Shown: piece by piece, positions 11,796-60,034 of the stretch | How the letters are laid out: every line of letters begins with the position of its first letter | Numbering within the stretch: the stretch's first letter is position 1 | Assembly: GCF_020567705.1 (NCBI RefSeq) | Contig: NZ_JAJDJU010000001.1 | Coordinates: forward strand, 248,001 to 312,000 | DNA from: Acidocella sp. KAb 2-4 | Lineage (GTDB): Bacteria; Pseudomonadota; Alphaproteobacteria; Acetobacterales; Acetobacteraceae | Reading direction: 5' to 3' | Length of the DNA: 64,000 nucleotides | Notes under the pieces: model-generated | What the model was told of the DNA's origin: nothing | The model's input: only the letters and a program-made list of their open reading frames with translations | Database searches by the model: none | Program-made: the position numbers and the translations under genes

Positions 11796-11809
11796 TTGAT
11801 CTCAATCAA
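11796..11809. promoter_or_regulatory. FNR/FixK-type box upstream of the flavin reductase gene
   Basis: TTGATCTCAATCAA is a perfect match to the TTGAT-N4-ATCAA consensus for FNR/FixK/ANR regulators. Its centre is about 42 bases before the ATG of the flavin reductase gene. A TAATTT hexamer at 11832-11837 stands where the -10 element would be if the box sits at -41.5, the class II activator position. That would place the transcription start at about 11844, next to the ATG. The box is seen; its use is inferred. Confidence 0.65.
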
Positions 11810-11844: not shown

Positions 11845-12381
11845 ATGTTGAAAGACCTGCCCCTCGCCAAAGTCTACCAGTTCATCGAACCCGGCCCAGT
11901 GGTGCTGCTCACCACCCAGGCGGCCAAGGAAAAGCCGGATGTCATGGCGATGTCATGGCACATGATGCTGGAATTCGAGCCGCCGCTGATCGCCTGCGTG
12001 GTCAGTGCCGATAATCACAGCTTCAAGGCGCTCCGCAAATACCGCGAATGCGTGATCGCCATTCCCCCCGCCGAACTGGCCGAAACCGTCACCGGCATCG
12101 GCAACTGCACCGGCGCGGACACCGATAAATTCGGCGTGTACGAACTCACCCCGCTTCCCGCCAAGCATGTCGCCGCGCCGCTGATCGGCGAGGCGATCGT
12201 CAACCTGGAATGCAAGGTGCGCGATACGCGGATGGTGAACGCCTATAACTTATTCGTGGTGGAATGCGTGCAGGCTTGGCAGAATCCGAAACTCAAAGAC
12301 GCCAGGACCATCCATCACCACGGCTACGGCGATTTCGCCGTGGATGGCGAGATGATCCACATTAAATCAAAAATGCGTTAG
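11845..12381 (+). CDS. flavin reductase family (FMN-binding split-barrel) protein
   Basis: A 178-residue protein of the flavin reductase-like family. The central segment PDVMAMSWHMMLEFEPPLIA (about residues 31-50) is the FMN-binding part. VVSADNHSFKALRKYRECVI, NLECKVRDT and VVECVQAW follow in the usual order. Members reduce FMN for a partner monooxygenase or carry out FMN-dependent reductions; the role here is not known. It stands behind an FNR-type box, which suggests oxygen- or redox-linked control. No good Shine-Dalgarno site precedes the ATG. The stop TAG shares four bases (TTAG) with the stop of the convergent Gfo/Idh/MocA gene. Confidence 0.82.
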   Translation: MLKDLPLAKVYQFIEPGPVVLLTTQAAKEKPDVMAMSWHMMLEFEPPLIACVVSADNHSFKALRKYRECVIAIPPAELAETVTGIGNCTGADTDKFGVYELTPLPAKHVAAPLIGEAIVNLECKVRDTRMVNAYNLFVVECVQAWQNPKLKDARTIHHHGYGDFAVDGEMIHIKSKMR

Positions 12382-18130: not shown

Positions 18131-19390
18131 ATGACTCAAGACTCGGATGCCAGCTTGCGCGCCTCGCTCACCCGCCACAGGCTGTTCGCCAGTTCGCTGC
18201 TGGGGCTGATGGCCGCCCTTACCTTGCTCGGCTATTGGCTGCCGCTCTCCCCCTGGTCGGCGCTGCTGCGCGATGCCGCCAAGGCCGGCTTCATCGGCGG
18301 GGTGGCGGATTGGTTCGCCGTCACCGCGCTGTTCCGTCATCCGCTCGGCCTGCCGATCCCGCACACCGCCATCCTTCCGGCGCAGAAGGAGCGGCTGGGC
18401 AACGCACTGGGGCGCTTCGTCGCCAACCACGTGTTCACCGAGGCGGATATCCGGAAGGTGCTGGCCAATCTTGACGCTCCGGCGATCCTGCGCCGCTTCC
18501 TCACCGACAGCACCGCCACCCGCCCGCTGGCGGAGGCCCTGGCCGGGATGCTTCCCAAGCTGCTCGCCAGCATCGAGGATGGCCGCGCGCGGCGCCTGCT
18601 GGCGCGGCTGCTGCCCAAGCTGGCCGGGGGCCGTGCCGCCGGGGTGGTCGTGGCCCGCGCCCTCGCCGGGCTGGTCGAGGGAGGACGCCATCAGGAAGTA
18701 TTTTCATTCATTCTCAGCCAATTGAAGGACACTCTTGCGACGCGTGAGGAAATCCTGCGCGACGCCATCAAGGAGCGCGTGCGCGAGCAGGGCGGCAAGC
18801 TGGTCGGCTGGGCGCTGGGCGCCACCGTGGCCAACCGGGTGCTGACTGCGGTGAATGCCGAACTCGACCGCATCGGCCCCGATAGCTCAGAGATCCGCGA
18901 GGCCTTCGATGAATGGGCGCATCGCGAGATCGCCCGGCTGGAGACCGACCCCGAGCGCGCCGCGGAACTGGGCCGCGCCCTGCGCGCCGTGCTGTCGCAC
19001 GACACGGTGAAGGCCTGGGCCTGGGATGTCTGGGCCCGCATGCGCCACGCCCTGGAGGTGGACGCCGCCAACCCGCATGGCCGCTCGGTCGCGGTGATCG
19101 AGGCGGCGCTGGTGCATCTCAGCGATGTGCTGGAAAAAGACGAAGCCGCCCAGCAGCGCGTCAACGCCGCGGCGCAGGCGCTGGTGCTGCGCATGCTGCC
19201 CGGCGCCCAAGCCGAGGGGGCGAAATTCATCGGCCGCGTCATCGGCGCGTGGGACACCGCGACCATCACCGAGAAGCTGGAACTGCGGGTCGGCAAAGAC
19301 CTGCAATATATCCGCGTCAACGGCACGCTGGTCGGCTTCTTCCTCGGCGCGGCCATCAACCTCGCCTTGGCGGCCCTGCATCTGGGGTGA
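18131..19390 (+). CDS. DUF445 family membrane protein (YjiN-like)
   Basis: A 419-residue protein with the DUF445 layout. TM1 is at about residues 22-40. Then comes the conserved AAKAGFIGGVADWFAVTALFRHPLGLPIP segment (roughly 48-76), a long helical middle, and a final TM at about 397-417. The function of the family is not established. The ATG at 18131 is chosen because the family signature begins shortly after it; the frame stays open upstream without homology. IalB-like and rlmN genes follow on the same strand. Confidence 0.85.
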   Translation: MTQDSDASLRASLTRHRLFASSLLGLMAALTLLGYWLPLSPWSALLRDAAKAGFIGGVADWFAVTALFRHPLGLPIPHTAILPAQKERLGNALGRFVANHVFTEADIRKVLANLDAPAILRRFLTDSTATRPLAEALAGMLPKLLASIEDGRARRLLARLLPKLAGGRAAGVVVARALAGLVEGGRHQEVFSFILSQLKDTLATREEILRDAIKERVREQGGKLVGWALGATVANRVLTAVNAELDRIGPDSSEIREAFDEWAHREIARLETDPERAAELGRALRAVLSHDTVKAWAWDVWARMRHALEVDAANPHGRSVAVIEAALVHLSDVLEKDEAAQQRVNAAAQALVLRMLPGAQAEGAKFIGRVIGAWDTATITEKLELRVGKDLQYIRVNGTLVGFFLGAAINLALAALHLG

Positions 19391-42145: not shown

Positions 42146-45100
42146 TTAACCCCCGGCGGCCCGCCCGTCAACCGGCGGCCTCAGCCAACTGGGCGCAATC
42201 GCGGCCAAGGGCAGCGTAATGCACCGCCGCGCCCGGCCAAAGCGCAACTCCGCCCGCGCGCCCATCCAGGCGCCCGCATCCTGCGCGCCACGCGCCAGCC
42301 AGCCCTCGCCCAGCGCCGCGCCGGGCATTTCACCCAGGCACAGGCTGAGCTCGCGCCAATCCTCCGAGTCCGGGTCGGTCTCGGCCGGGGCGGCGGCGCC
42401 CGCCAACAGGGTGAGGCGCTCCACCGGCCGGGCGAATTCCAGCCGCGCCAGCCGCGCCGCGCCGGCGCGGGTGATCTCGGGCAGCAGCGTCTGCCCCTCG
42501 GCCACGGCCCGCAGCCGGGGCAGATAGGCCGGGCGGAACCCGGCCGCGAGCGCGACACCGTGCAGACGCTGCCGCGCCGCCGCCAGCCGCGCGCCCTTGG
42601 TGATGCTCGGCGCATAAGGCCGCGCCGCCGGGCTGCGCCGCCCCAGCTCATGATACAGCGCGCCGCGATTGCCCGCGCAAAAATAAGATTCGCAGCCCAG
42701 CCCCTCGGCCAGCAAGATGTCGTGCCGGTCCAGCTCGACATGAAAATATGTCGCCGCAGCCGCGCCGCGCTCGCGGCGGATCGTCGCACCGTTCACCAGA
42801 TGCGTGACCGGGATCAGCACCCCGTCCACATACACGCCATGCAGCGGCGAGAGGCGCAGCATCCGGCGCGGCAGCCCCGGCCCGAAGGCGCCAGGCATGA
42901 TCAACACCGGCAGTGCCGCGCGCGCCGGGTTGGGGCCGAAATCCAGCGTGCGCCAGCCGATCCAGCGCACCGGGCGGCGCTCGCCTGCCGCGGTGATCAG
43001 CGGGTCGCCGGGGCGCAAACTCTCCACCGGGCGGTAGCCATCGGGGCTGAGCAGCCGCGTGCCGCGCGCGAAGCAGGGCATCTCGCCACCCAGCGTGAGC
43101 AGTGAGCCGCCCGCCCCGTCCGCGACAACGGACATCGCAGGCTGGCCCGCCACCGTCTGCACCGCGAAGGCGGTAATCTCGGCGCCCAGCGTGTCGAACA
43201 CCCCAATCGTCCCGGCGCTGTAGGTGACGAGGCTGGGCGCCACGCCCACCAGATCCACCGCGTCGCCGCCCTCCATGTTGGCGATGCCCGAGAGCCCCGC
43301 CGCCACATCATCCACCACCAACTCGGCGCCTGTGCCCGCGAAACTCACCGCCGCGCCGCTCACCGCGCCGCTCAGCTCCAGCACCGCGCCCGCGCCTACC
43401 GCCAGCTTCCCGGCATTGTTCACCACCCCGGCCAGCACCAACCGCCCGCCCAGCGCCTCGATACTGCCGGTGTTGCCGATGCTGCCCGCCGCCAGAACGC
43501 CATAGCCGCTGAGCAGCCCGCCGCCCTCGGCGGCGCTGGCGGCGCTGATCTCGCCACCTTGCAGCGTCAGCGTCTCCGCGCTCAGGCTGCCCGCCACACT
43601 CACCTGCCCAGCCACGCTCATCACGCCGCCATTTTGCACCAGCATACCCGCGCGCAACCCGGCGCCGAGGCCGATTCCAATCGTTCCGCCCGCCTCCTCG
43701 GTCAGCGCGCCGCTCACCGCCATGCTGCCGGTGCCGCCCAGCGTCAGCGCGCCCGCGCCGTCGTAGGATGACGCTGTCAACGTCGCGGCATCGGCCAGGG
43801 TCATGCCGCCGGCATTGCTCACCGCGCCCAGCACCCCCGCCCCGCCGCCATAGGCCAGCAGCGTGCCCGCCGCGCCGATGGAAGCCGCGCCCAGTGTTGC
43901 CGCGCCGCCGATCTCGAACATGCCCGAGGCCAGCGCCAGCGAACCCGCCGCGCTGAACTCGCCGCTGATGACCGCCTGGCTGGCATTGGCCAGGGTGATA
44001 TTACCCGTGGAGGAAAACGCCGTGCCCAGCACCGCCAGCGACCCGCCGCTCAGCATGGCGTCGGCGCCCAGCGCCACCTCGGCCGCGGCGCCAAAAATCG
44101 CCTCGCCGCCGCCGTTCACCAGCAGCGCCGTGCCCGAATAGCCGCTGGCCTCCAGCAGACTATTGAACTCCACCGTGCCGGAGACCGACACCCCGCCCAG
44201 CGCGGCGGCGGCCGTGATCTCGGGCAGGCCGGTGCCGGGGCCGAACCCGGCCAGCTCGGCGGCGCTGAAGGCGGTGGCGGTGTAGCCGTTCACCGTGCCG
44301 GCGCTCAGCCCGGCGATGGCAATTTTCTCGTTGAGCCCGGCCAGCAGCCCGGTGCTGCCGGTGAAGCTCAGCGCGTCATTCACGCCAGTGCCGGTATAGC
44401 TCAGCCCCGCCAATTCGGCGTTCATCGCCTGCGCATTGGCCGCGCTCAGCGTGAGCGTCGCGGCCGGAGCCAGCGTGCCCAGGCTCAGCGTGCCATGCGC
44501 CACGGACACGGTGAGCGAGAGCGTCTGCGCCGCCGTGCCCGCGAGTTCGAGATCCAGCCCCGGCAGCGCCTGCGCCACGCCGGCGCTCGCCCCCAGCGCC
44601 GCGCCACTGCTGATGCTGGGCGCCGAGGGGCGCAGATAAATCACCGCGTCACCCCCGGCATCGAGCCCGGCGGCGGGCACATAGCCCGAGGGCAGCGCAG
44701 CATGGATGGTGTAGGACTGCGTGGTGCCCCCCGCATCCACGCCCGACACCGCGAAGGAGGACGCGCTTACATTATAGACGCTGAACCCGGTGAGGCCGGG
44801 GAAGATCAGCTCATCGCCCGGCGCGAAGCCGGTGATGGTGCCCGAGAAAAGCTGCGGCCCGGTGATGACGAACGCGCCCCCCGCCCCGCCCAGCGTGCCC
44901 GCATAGCCGCCGCTCACCGGCACCGCCCCGGCGCCGGGCAAAAAGTTGAGCGTCACATCGCTGGCGATGGTCAGCGGCGTGATGTTGAAAATGCCGTAGA
45001 GCGAGGCATCCTCGCCCAGCACCATCACGCCGCCCGGCGCCACATCCAGCGCCACCCCACCCGTGATCAGCCCGGCATTCACCCCCAGCGTCTCCCCGCC

Positions 45101-46348
45101 CAAGGCGAGCAGCGTGCCCGGCCCGGTGATCTCGGGCGCGGCGGAGAAATTGCCCACGGTGAGCGTGCCGCCGCCCTCCAGCACCGCCCCGGCGGCCAGC
45201 GACACCCCTAGCTCATAATCATTGCCCGCATTGCCATCCACGGTGAGCGACCCGGCGAAGTCGAGCAGCGCGCCCGCGCCGAGCGAAACCGGCCCGGCGA
45301 TGACACCGCCCGCGCTCAGCAACGTGCCGGTCCCGGTGAGGCTGGCGGCGCTGAGCGTGCCGAAATCCAGGCTGGTGCCACCCAGAGTGAGCGCGTTCTG
45401 CGCCACTTGCAGCGCGCCATCGGGCGCCACGAACACTCCCGCCCCGGCGCTGAGATTACCGAGCATGGCGGTGGTGCCACTCACACTCAGCACCGAAGCG
45501 AGCGTGGTGTCGCCCGTGACCAGCGTGTCCGCGCCCGTTGCGTAAGTGCCGCTGGCCCCCGGCGTGCCCACGGTGTTGAGGTAGATATTGCCATAAGTCG
45601 CCATGCGCGGCAGCACGCCGTTCAGGTTCCAGGCGGTGTAATCGAGATGCTGCCCGCCGCTCACCGTTGGCCCGGCGAATTCCAGCCCGGGGAGCAGCGT
45701 GTTCAGCGCGCCCAACTCGTCGGCGGTGCAGCTCAGCACGATGGTGCCCGTGCCCACACCCGCAGCGCTGACCCCGCTCATCCCGGTGAGCCCCGGCAGC
45801 AGCAGCACGCCCTCGGCCACCGCCAGGGTCACGGCCAGCGCCTCCTGCTTGCCTAGCCCCATCGCCGCCAGCCCCGCCGCCGATGGGTCGGCCAGCAGCA
45901 GATCGGGCAGCGTCGTCGGCGTGCCAGGATGCAGGGTGACGATCTTCGCCGGATTGACAAAAGCGGGGCCGGTGGCGGGCGCCACGCTCACCGCGATATC
46001 GGTCTGCGCGCTCAGCGCCGCCGGGTCGGTCGCGCTCAGGCGCAGCACATCGGCGCTGGTCCCGGCGGGCTCTGTCACCTCCAGGCTGGCCAACGCCGCG
46101 TTCACCTGCGCCGCGCTGCCGGTCAGCGTAATCAGATTGCCCGCGCCGGACACCACGGCGCCGGAGGCCGCGCCAACCGCCAGCACCGCGCCGCTATTGG
46201 CGGCCGAAACTTGCACCGTCAGCGTGCCGCCCGCCACCGGGTCGCTCACCATGATCGCGGGCGCCAGCGCCTCCAGCGAGGACAAGGTGGCGTTGCCCGC
46301 CAGCACCGTCAGTGTCGCGGGCGCGGAGATGTTCAGCCGGCTGGTCAC
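42146..46348 (-). CDS. large Hint-domain, cadherin/autotransporter-repeat-like adhesin
   Basis: A 1,400-residue protein. The first 250 residues have cadherin-like beta repeats. From about 270 to 1,070 are Ala/Gly/Leu-rich beta-helix-like repeats (patterns such as [33 protein letters not shown]). A Hint domain starts at Cys1092 ([20 protein letters not shown]), with the conserved His in [13 protein letters not shown] and the end block [20 protein letters not shown]. About 170 residues follow. No signal peptide is obvious, so export may use a type I system. The GTG start follows a 127-base A+T-rich divergent region. Confidence 0.82.
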
Positions 46349-55852: not shown

Positions 55853-57136
55853 TTACCGGTAGATGGGGAAACGGGCACAGAGCGCCTTCACCCGCGCCCC
55901 GACCGCCGCTTCCGCCGCGTCGTTGGTGCCGTCATTGGACTTCGCCAGCCCGTCCAGCACCTCGCCGATCATCAGGCCGATCTCGCGGAACTCGGCCTCG
56001 CCGAAGCCGCGCGTGGTGGCGGCCGGGGTGCCGAGGCGGATGCCGGAGGTGACGGCCGGCTTCGCCGGGTCGAACGGGATGGCGTTTTTGTTGGCGGTGA
56101 TATGCGCGCGCTCCAGCGAGGCTTCGGCGGCCTTGCCGGTGGTGTTCTTGGGGCGCAGATCGACCAGCATCAGATGGCTGTCGGTGCCACCGGTGACGAT
56201 CGCCAGCCCCTGCTCCACCAGCGTCGCCGCCAGCACCTTGGCATTGGCCGCCACCTGCTTCTGATACGCCACGAATTCCGGTGTCAGCGCCTCGCCGAAC
56301 GCCACCGCCTTGGCAGCGATGACATGCATCAGCGGGCCGCCCTGCAGGCCGGGGAAGGTCGCGGAGTTGATCTTCTTGGCGATGTCCTCGTGATTGGTGA
56401 GCACCATGCCGCCGCGCGGGCCGCGCAGGGTCTTGTGCGTGGTGGTGGTGACGACATGCGCGTGCGGCAGCGGGTTGGGATAAATGCCCGCCGCGACTAG
56501 GCCGGCGAAATGCGCCATGTCCACCATGAAATAGGCCCCAACCTCATCGGCCACGGCGCGGATGCGTGCGAAGTCGATGAAGCGCGGATAGGCGGAGCCG
56601 CCGGCGATGATCAGTTTCGGCTTATGCTCGCGGGCCAGGCGCTCCAGCTCCTCGTAATCGAGCAGGCCGTCTTCGCGCCGCACGCCGTATTGCACGGCGT
56701 TGAACCATTTGCCGGACATGTTGGGCGCGGCGCCATGGGTGAGATGCCCGCCCGCCGCCAGCGACATACCGAGGATGGTGTCGCCCGGCTGGATCAGCGC
56801 CAGGAACACCGACTGATTGGCCTGGGAGCCGGAATTTGCCTGCACATTGGCGAAACCGGCGCCGAACATCTTCTTGGCGCGCTCGATGGCGAGGTTTTCC
56901 ACCTCGTCCGAGGGGCCGCAGCCGCCGTAATAGCGCTTGCCGGGGTAGCCCTCGGCGTATTTATTGGTGAACACCGAGCCCTGCGCGGCCAGCACGGCGG
57001 CGGAGACGATGTTCTCGGAGGCGATCAGCTCGATGCCGTCCTGCTCGCGGGCCAGCTCGCGGCCGATGATGGCCGCGATTTCAGGGTCGGTCTGGGTGAG
57101 CGGAGCGGAGAAGAAGCGCGCGAGGGTCTGCGTCAT
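55853..57136 (-). CDS. glyA: serine hydroxymethyltransferase
   Basis: A 427-residue PLP enzyme that interconverts serine and glycine with tetrahydrofolate. Conserved segments are [34 protein letters not shown]-like KRYYGGC, and [12 protein letters not shown]. The PLP lysine is in [16 protein letters not shown]. Start and length are normal. It overlaps rpiB by four bases and is followed by nrdR after seven. Confidence 0.97.
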
Positions 57137-57591
57137 GGCGTGGGTTCCGTGGTCTTGTTGATCTTGGCGAGGCGGCGCTCATGGCGGCCGCCCTCGAACT
57201 TGGTGGCGAGGAAAGTTTTCACAATATCCACCGCCACTTCCTCGCCGGTGATGCGCGCGCCGAGGGCGAGCACGTTGGCGTCGTTATGCTGGCGGGTGAG
57301 GCGCGCGGTGGTGACATCATGCACCAGGGCGCAGCGTATGGCCGGGTTGCGGTTGGCGGCGATGCTCATGCCAATGCCGGTGCCGCAGACGAGCAGGCCG
57401 AAATCGGCGCGCCTCTCGGCCACGGCGTCGCACACTGCATGGGCGAAATCGGGGTAATCCACGCTTTCCGGGCCGTTGGTGCCGTAATCGAGGAGCTGGT
57501 GGCCGGCCTCGGCCAGCAACACGGCGAGGCGCTGCTTGAGCGCCACGCCGCCATGGTCGGCCCCCAGGGCCAGGATCAAAGAACGAGTCAT
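57133..57591 (-). CDS. rpiB: ribose-5-phosphate isomerase B
   Basis: A 152-residue isomerase for ribulose 5-phosphate and ribose 5-phosphate. The start [16 protein letters not shown], the DYPDFAHAV segment and Cys69 in [17 protein letters not shown], the ring-opening/isomerising base, fit the RpiB family. It is the first gene of the nine-gene rpiB-glyA-nrdR-ribDEBH-nusB-thiL unit. Confidence 0.95.
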
Positions 57592-57626: not shown

Positions 57627-58889
57627 CTAGCCGAAGAACAGCCCGCCTATGCCACCCAGCACGCCGAAGCCGCAGGTGACGGCGCAGACCGCCCATACCA
57701 CCCAGAGATACCAGCCCTTGAGGCGCTGCGCGGCGGGCAGCGTGACCATGGCGAGGCGCACGAGGAAGCCCAGCACCACCGGCAACAGCAGCGCGTTCAT
57801 CACCTGCACGCCCACGTTCAGGCTCACCAGATTGGGGGCAAACCCCACCGCCAGCGCGCCCCCGATGACGCAGAGCGCATAAACGCCATAGAACCATTTG
57901 GCCTTGAGCGGGTGGTATTCGAGCGAGCGGCGATAGCCGGAGACCTCGCCCAGCCCCCAGGCAAGCGCGAGCGAGGCGACGATGGCCGCCACCAGCCCCG
58001 CGCCCAGCACGCCGAGGGAGAACACCACCTCGCCAAATTCCTTGCCGAGGTAAGGGGTCAGCGCCTCGCTCATCTGGCCGACGGTGGAGAGGGTGGCCTG
58101 CGGGGCGTGCGGGCGGATAGCCGCGGCCGCCGCCACCAGCACCGCCGCCATCACCAGCTGAGTGACCACCGCGCCGATCCCCGTATCCCAGCGCGCGGCG
58201 CTGAAATGCTCAGCCTTGAGGCGTTTATCAGCCACCGCCGATTGCTGGTAGAACACCATCCAGGGCATGATCACCGCGCCGATATTGGCGGCGACGAGAT
58301 ATTCATAGCTGGCGTTGAACACGGGCGGGTGCAGGGCCTCGGTGCGAAGTTGGGCGAGATTGGGATGCGCGATCCAGGCGACAAAGAAAAACGCCAGCTC
58401 GAACAGCCCCACGGCGATGGCCACACGCTCCACCCGGCGGTAGGAGCCGGTGACAACGATGGCGAGCAGCACCGCCGCCGCCATCGGCAGCGAGACGTAA
58501 TGCGGGATGCCGAACAGATCGCCCACCCCGGCCACGCCCGAAAACTCGGTGAGCAGCGCGCCGATGGTGGCCACCGCCAAGCCGGAAGCTGAGAACCACG
58601 CCCAGCCAGGGCCGAACGCCTCGCGGATCAGCTCGCCATGACCCTTGCCGGTGAAGATGCCGAGGCGGACGGTGAGCTCCTGCACCACATAGAGCACCGG
58701 CATGAGCAAGAATTGCGGCAGCAGCAGCTTGTAGCCCCATTGCACCCCGCTCTGCCCGGCGGTGATGATGGAGCCGACATCGGTATCGGCCAGCATGACG
58801 ACGAGGCCGGGGCCGAAGACGGCCATGAGCATGGCCCAGGAGGGAAGCCCGCGGCGTGAGGCGGCCGGAGCTTGGGTAGCGGTGGGCAT
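57627..58889 (-). CDS. atypical Nramp-like divalent metal transporter
   Basis: A 420-residue integral membrane protein of the Nramp superfamily with about 11 helices. The start FGPGLVVMLADTDVGS (residues 25-40) corresponds to TM1, whose canonical DPGN metal site is replaced by DTDVG. In TM6 the canonical MPHN is replaced by MPWM (residues 208-211). Both substitutions depart from the Mn/Fe site of MntH, so the ion is uncertain. A Fur-type box lies upstream. ATG 58889 fits a short N-terminus; a 24-residue longer reading reaches into the regulatory region. Confidence 0.82.
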   Translation of the reverse strand: MPTATQAPAASRRGLPSWAMLMAVFGPGLVVMLADTDVGSIITAGQSGVQWGYKLLLPQFLLMPVLYVVQELTVRLGIFTGKGHGELIREAFGPGWAWFSASGLAVATIGALLTEFSGVAGVGDLFGIPHYVSLPMAAAVLLAIVVTGSYRRVERVAIAVGLFELAFFFVAWIAHPNLAQLRTEALHPPVFNASYEYLVAANIGAVIMPWMVFYQQSAVADKRLKAEHFSAARWDTGIGAVVTQLVMAAVLVAAAAAIRPHAPQATLSTVGQMSEALTPYLGKEFGEVVFSLGVLGAGLVAAIVASLALAWGLGEVSGYRRSLEYHPLKAKWFYGVYALCVIGGALAVGFAPNLVSLNVGVQVMNALLLPVVLGFLVRLAMVTLPAAQRLKGWYLWVVWAVCAVTCGFGVLGGIGGLFFG

Positions 58890-58920
58890 GAGCGCGGGAT
58901 CCTCTCCGGGGCGTTGTAAT

Positions 58921-58935
58921 TGCAAATCATTCTCA
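58921..58935. promoter_or_regulatory. Fur-type box between the Nramp-like gene and hemB
   Basis: TGCAAATCATTCTCA agrees at 11 of 14 positions with the 7-1-7 Fur consensus TGATAAT-n-ATTATCA. It lies 32 bases before the Nramp-like ATG on the minus side and about 107 bases before hemB. Next to it (58939-58955) is a separate perfect 7-3-7 palindrome, CTAATTC / GAATTAG, whose regulator is unknown. Fur, Mur or a related protein may control the transporter. Confidence 0.5.
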
Positions 58936-58938
58936 CTT

Positions 58939-58955
58939 CTAATTCTGCGAATTAG
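58939..58955. promoter_or_regulatory. perfect inverted repeat, possible second operator
   Basis: CTAATTC-TGC-GAATTAG is a perfect 7-bp inverted repeat with a 3-base spacer, directly beside the Fur-type box in the divergent Nramp-like/hemB interval. The architecture recalls Irr/Fur-family sites, but the sequence is not a known consensus. Function inferred from position only. Confidence 0.4.
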
Positions 58956-58981
58956 TTTCAATTACGTCCCCTTGTCAATCA

Positions 58982-58995
58982 TTGATCTGGATCAA
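58982..58995. promoter_or_regulatory. FNR/FixK-type box upstream of hemB
   Basis: TTGATCTGGATCAA is a perfect TTGAT-N4-ATCAA match, centred 53 bases before the hemB ATG. Control of heme genes by FNR/FixK-type regulators under low oxygen is known in Alphaproteobacteria, but is best documented for hemA and hemN. A clear -10 is not evident. Together with the box upstream of the flavin reductase this is the second perfect copy in the window. Confidence 0.6.

Positions 58996-59032: not shown

Positions 59033-60034
<1,002 letters not shown>

Follow-up and report, generated by a model that had tools for sequence, protein, structure and literature searches.

A Fur-boxed Nramp-related transporter of Acidocella with a DxxS-AxxM ion site: probable Fe2+ and/or Mn2+ importer orthologous to the 'MntH' of Acidithiobacillus ferrooxidans

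Which ion does an Nramp-like protein carry when its metal motifs depart from those of MntH, and what controls its gene? The question is raised by a gene in a 64-kb window of the Acidocella sp. KAb 2-4 genome. The initial annotation read DTDVG in TM1 and MPWM in TM6, noted a Fur-type site and a separate palindrome in the promoter, and proposed either an iron/manganese importer with a different coordination scheme or a transporter for another ion, such as Mg or Al, under metal-responsive control. Structure prediction and placement in a tree with MntH and NRMT were suggested as checks.

The transporter gene and its ion site

The Nramp-like reading frame was recovered where it had been annotated, on the minus strand, and its translation matched the Pfam Nramp profile PF01566 over profile positions 2-344 of 357 (E=3e-71; 240.8 bits for a cut-off of 29.8), placing it in the superfamily. 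Its start codon was revised. The longest frame opens at TTG 58961 and its first 24 codons cross conserved operators; the start codon is therefore most likely the ATG at 58889, with 58890-58961 forming a non-coding promoter/leader. The gene so delimited spans 57627-58889 and encodes 420 amino acids. As context, rpiB lies downstream (57133-57591, minus strand), followed by glyA, nrdR and ribD, and hemB, encoding ALA dehydratase, is divergent (59042-60034, plus strand). No conserved operon partner was found beyond local synteny, the adjacency of hemB and rpiB being confined to the Acidocella group. Elsewhere in the window, a 1401-aa minus-strand frame (42146-46348) resembles large, repetitive, autotransporter-like surface proteins.

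Both annotated motifs are present in the translation. Residue equivalences were taken from a MAFFT alignment with DraNramp. In TM1, D37-V38-G39-S40 (codons 58770-58781, minus strand) stands opposite D56-P57-G58-N59; DTDV could thus be rejected as the replacement of DPGN, D37 being set at D56. In TM6, A205-V-I-M208 (codons 58266-58277, minus strand), followed by P209-W210-M211, aligns with the A/CxxM motif, and A205, M208 and W210 correspond to A227, M230 and H232. The view that both canonical metal motifs are lacking holds for the Asn to Ser and His to Trp changes but had misjudged the register: of the four classical metal ligands, Asp, the Ala carbonyl and Met keep their positions, Asn to Ser being the one ligand change. 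In TM3, A105, L112 and E115 correspond to E124, D131 and E134, so that the proton-path residues E124, D131 and H232 are replaced by A, L and W, respectively, and the canonical TM9 Arg pair is absent. These states are near-fixed in the subfamily (n=42), with S40 and M208 each found in 41 members, and A205 and W210 in all 42.

Acidophiles face high Al3+, a setting in which an aluminium (NRAT-like) transporter could be imagined. Of the published signatures, DxxN-A/CxxM marks transition-metal Nramps, DxxN-AxxT marks NRATs and DxxG-TxxA/T marks NRMTs; in transition-metal Nramps the TM6 Met serves as the soft ligand, NRMTs having Ala or Thr at this position (PMC8806188). The DxxS-AxxM signature of the transporter fits none of them exactly. 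It differs from that of NRATs and from that of NRMTs, and among the canonical features it has A/CxxM in TM6 but DVGS for DxxN in TM1, and neither the TM6 His (W210) nor the TM3/TM9 proton path (A105, L112, no Arg pair).

The AlphaFold2 model (pLDDT 88.9, pTM 0.87) has the helix breaks of the LeuT fold at residues 36-37 of TM1 and 207-208 of TM6, where the ion site is expected. Its best match among solved folds is EleNRMT (TM-score 0.82), followed by DraNramp and other family members; EleNRMT is also the nearest solved structure by sequence (1e-46). SiNRAT is a distant match, at rank 28, which together with the signature makes aluminium transport very hard to credit. The closeness to EleNRMT, a mover of Mg2+ as well as Mn2+, with which the transporter has in common the TM6 PWM and the lost proton path, counts against a purely transition-metal reading and would suit an NRMT-kind magnesium transporter that happens to carry Fur control. 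The signature is not that of NRMTs, the Met being kept; in addition, neither the M-box that controls some NRMTs nor any other riboswitch was found in 17 loci, the genome encodes CorA for Mg, and the regulation described below is of iron type. We consider this explanation improbable, and the Mg or Al alternative of the initial annotation is not favoured.

Fur-type and Fnr-type boxes of the promoter

The 15-bp site reported in the promoter was confirmed: TGAGAATGATTTGCA (58921-58935, minus strand) agrees with the 7-1-7 Fur consensus in 11 of its 14 positions, a match as good being reached within 200 bp in 0.7% of dinucleotide shuffles (P about 0.007). It was reinforced by two further analyses. 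First, an unsupervised EM search of 72 non-redundant promoters of orthologs, started at random and restricted to symmetric motifs (symmetry was assumed, the letters were not), converged on a 9-1-9 palindrome of Fur type, AtTGcGAATNATTCgCAaT, with a log-likelihood of 520 versus 53-66 in shuffled sets. Second, a Fur matrix was built with the window's own group (L002-L012) left out, and its two highest-scoring sites in the whole window both lie in this promoter: box 1, AGTGAGAATGATTTGCAAT (58919-58937, minus strand), with 22.6 bits, and box 2, ATTGAAACTAATTCGCAGA (58944-58962, minus strand), with 17.5 bits, the best reversed-sequence control reaching 7.6 bits. An exact match to TGAGAATNATTYGCA occurs only once in the genome, in this promoter. 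The separate perfect palindrome was also found as described (CTAATTC-TGC-GAATTAG, 58939-58955) and overlaps box 2. Most Acidocella relatives likewise carry two Fur-type sites. The third-best matrix match of the window (13.5 bits) lies at 18690-18708, with a weak overlapping match at 18700.

Searching the genome for the Fur pattern with at most 2 mismatches yielded 26 matches, versus 2 in the control. The motif fronts, as two sites 37 bp apart, an operon of cupredoxin, FTR1 and P19-like genes (L172, G000:C14:29000-37000), the names FTR1 and P19 resting on sequence reading; these genes form a probable Fur-controlled iron uptake operon. It is also found beside an MbfA-like rubrerythrin/VIT1 gene, so that the transporter has a conserved box in common with iron genes. 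The genome encodes two FUR-family proteins; since one of the genes sits in the znuA region, the other, a Fur-like protein at C34 (L084, 1348-1881), would be the natural reader of the boxes. DtxR/MntR was sought in the genome and not found.

The box of the orthologous gene has a history of its own. A. ferrooxidans 'MntH' (AFE0105) is reported to have a validated Fur box (PMC2631029, PMC2621215), and a 33-nt mntH Fur-box probe was bound by AfFur in gel shifts (PMC11910503). We searched this probe in 17 Acidithiobacillus genomes and obtained three exact matches, each directly upstream of an ortholog of the transporter with 64-66% identity (one at 97.9 kb of its contig). Because the matches stand directly before these orthologs, the name 'MntH', as used for the Fur-regulated protein in these acidophiles, designates the subfamily of the transporter. 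Likewise, since the AfFur-bound probe fronts the 64%-identical AFE0105, the regulatory half of the question is essentially already known for the subfamily. Taken with the conserved boxes common to iron genes, Fur control of the transporter is strongly supported, and the metal-responsive control put forward initially stands.

Which member of the Fur family reads the boxes bears on the substrate. Alphaproteobacterial Fur-type proteins can be Mn-sensing, and the protein could be chiefly a manganese importer whose boxes are read by a Mn-sensing, Mur-type member of the family. Some Acidocella boxes read TGCAAACTATTTGCA, which we take to be Mur-like, and a gene resembling Fe/Mn superoxide dismutase is found 3 kb from the transporter. 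Moreover, the Nramp-related NrmT of A. capsulatum gave full rescue of Mn-deficient and partial rescue of Mg-deficient B. subtilis (PMC4072509). Against this stand the presence of the same motif at the FTR1/P19-type iron uptake genes and at the MbfA-like gene, and the binding of the orthologous box by AfFur, an iron sensor (PMC11910503). Fur boxes alone cannot tell Fur from a Mn-sensing Mur, and only one regulator of this sort, be it Fur or Mur, is encoded in the genome. We regard the chiefly manganese reading as the less likely one, though it deserves to be kept in view.

A second perfect palindrome of the promoter, TTGATCTGGATCAA (58982-58995), has the TTGAT-N4-ATCAA pattern of an Fnr/Anr-type box. 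Only two exact occurrences of the pattern exist in the window, the other (11796-11809) being located just upstream of a frame of flavin-reductase-type appearance (11845-12381). In 8 Acidocella-type loci (L004-L011) the box is found again with 9-10 of its 10 positions matching, a level attained by 0.9% of shuffles, and four further Acidocella-labelled loci have it with one mismatch. In two of the eight (L005 and L008) hemB is about 700 bp from the transporter gene and the box remains with the latter, ruling out that it serves hemB alone. The genome encodes a Crp/Fnr protein (L178) whose N-terminal cysteines are Fnr-like. Between the boxes, TTGACA (58973-58978, minus strand) is a possible -35 element; its -10 counterpart is weak and would extend into Fur box 2, and a sigma-70 consensus scan found no full promoter match. 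An Rfam scan of the 17 loci returned only tRNAs, with which riboswitch control was ruled out.

Clade, distribution and metal-transport gene content

A scan of species genomes retrieved 80 relatives with 57-89% identity to the transporter, all having ADTD/E-x-GS or near variants and nearly all AVxMPWMVFYQQSA. Names from acid habitats are common among them (Acidocella, Acidithiobacillus, Acidicaldus, Thiomonas, Mizugakiibacter, Rhodopila), an impression of a subfamily common in acidophiles that the retrieval of near relatives biases. Orthology and the shared ADTDxGS and AVxMPWMVFYQQSA motifs place the transporter in the A. ferrooxidans MntH-type subfamily. A divergent clade member from a Bacillota MAG (L077/L142) combines DAGN (TM1) with ATFNPWM (TM6), i.e. 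the canonical Asn with the Met absent.

In a tree of 75 rows (IQ-TREE, LG+C20), canonical Nramps formed a single clade with 100/100 support and the transporter fell outside it, in a clade of its own supported at 100/99. This clade is sister (join 99/94) to a group of DAGG-TTIAPW and DGPS-ATVTPWM proteins. EleNRMT and its partner are on long branches, EleNRMT outside the sister pair, and the deep order is unsure. The grouping with NRMT-like proteins thus comes through the sister clade holding the DAGG-TTIAPW proteins, and the strongly supported clade of the transporter, distinct from MntH, lies on the NRMT-like side of the Nramp tree. By parsimony only, and depending on long branches, the Met looks gained independently rather than kept.

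The tree also bears on the idea that the protein is a canonical, proton-coupled MntH altered by nothing more than drift at its motifs, with which the conserved D, A and M ligand positions would agree. The canonical Nramps are a separate, fully supported clade, the NCBIfam MntH model gives the transporter 102.6 bits versus a cut-off of 430, and the proton-path residues are absent, with replacements near-fixed subfamily-wide; a drifted MntH is in our judgement quite unlikely.

According to score bands, about 11 of 17 Acetobacteraceae genomes have a canonical-type gene beside the transporter ortholog. Replacement of canonical MntH across the family was therefore discarded, there being no clear exclusion, and the transporter need not be the main Mn importer, because several Acetobacteraceae carry canonical MntH alongside. 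In several Acidithiobacillus genomes the ortholog is the sole Nramp.

The Acidocella genome itself (estimated completeness 100%) encodes three Nramp-like proteins, none canonical. FeoB was sought in this genome and not found, and its sole ZnuA-type binding-protein gene lies near the second FUR-family gene. With neither canonical MntH nor FeoB, ZnuA placed by a FUR-family gene and CorA available for Mg, this gene content suggests the transporter as the best candidate for inner-membrane entry of Fe2+/Mn2+ besides FTR1. The second paralog (L003, G000:C2:74853-75917), with the site DGPS / ATVTPWM, and a FUR-family gene are divergently oriented in a region (G000:C2:70937-74489) which also holds znuA; this paralog is possibly a zinc-responsive Nramp-related transporter. 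The third gene (L001, G000:C1:230850-231944; site DPSG / TTISPYL) belongs to a 100/100 clade of its own.

Proposed function and comparison with known systems

From sequence, structure model and regulon together, the protein is probably a Fur-repressed importer of Fe2+ and/or Mn2+, belonging to a distinct Nramp-related subfamily and orthologous to AFE0105. It would act as a stand-alone inner-membrane importer, its gene being repressed by holo-Fur on the two tandem promoter boxes under iron sufficiency; low oxygen, when Fe2+ is available, probably brings higher expression in Acidocella through an Fnr-type regulator. The ion would be held between the unwound TM1 and TM6 by D37, S40, the A205 backbone and M208, and E115 on TM3 may assist its binding. 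The iron/manganese importer with different coordination proposed initially thus keeps its altered site (Asn to Ser), with the qualification that the D, A and M positions are unchanged. EcoDMT still transports Mn without the Met (PMC8806188), so that the Met alone is no proof of selectivity.

With the proton-path residues lost, import probably proceeds without H+ coupling. BfraNramp (PMC12873925) and EleNRMT (PMC8806188) both lack most of these residues and are not H+-coupled, and by analogy we lean, by a modest measure, towards transport without proton coupling. More tentatively, and with doubts that outweigh our confidence, a proton-uncoupled NRMT-like scaffold may have regained (or kept) a transition-metal Met/Ala site independently of canonical Nramps. 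The site joins the soft Met of transition-metal Nramps to the proton-free frame of NRMTs and offers a natural test of the determinants of metal choice versus proton coupling in the Nramp family, and of the way in which bacteria living at very low pH take up iron while keeping acid out. If the proposal is true, acidophiles would possess a Fe2+/Mn2+ uniporter without proton leak at pH 2-4, and selectivity and proton coupling would be separable outside clade B.

Among known systems, a match to a characterised clade exists by half, the A. ferrooxidans ortholog being annotated 'MntH' and having a bound Fur box. AFE0105 is of the same subfamily, with 64% identity and a Fur-type box overlapping its promoter, and all Acidithiobacillus members read have DTDVGS (DTEVGS in one MAG branch) and GAVIMPWM; the promoter layout differs, Acidocella having two boxes and an Fnr box. 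AFE0105 is named MntH in the literature though it is without the canonical motifs, and for proteins of its type the name is a misnomer as to motif: the widely used 'MntH' of acidophiles, with a Fur box that serves laboratories as a standard probe, falls outside canonical MntH. EleNRMT, the Mg2+/Mn2+ transporter of Eggerthella lenta (7QIA), resembles the transporter in its TM6 PWM, absent proton path and conserved TM3 Glu, but has a DxxG-TxxA site where the transporter has DxxS-AxxM with the soft Met and Ala. BfraNramp, a proton-independent Mn2+ uniporter of canonical clade B (10KY/10LE), has a similar Asp/Met site and TM3 Glu and lacks most proton-path residues; unlike the transporter, which has S and W and groups with NRMT-like proteins, it retains DPGN and MPH and belongs to the canonical clade. 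Finally, canonical MntH proteins (DraNramp, EcoDMT) have the same LeuT fold and D, A and M ligands, whereas the transporter is without their Asn ligand, His and proton path and forms a separate clade.
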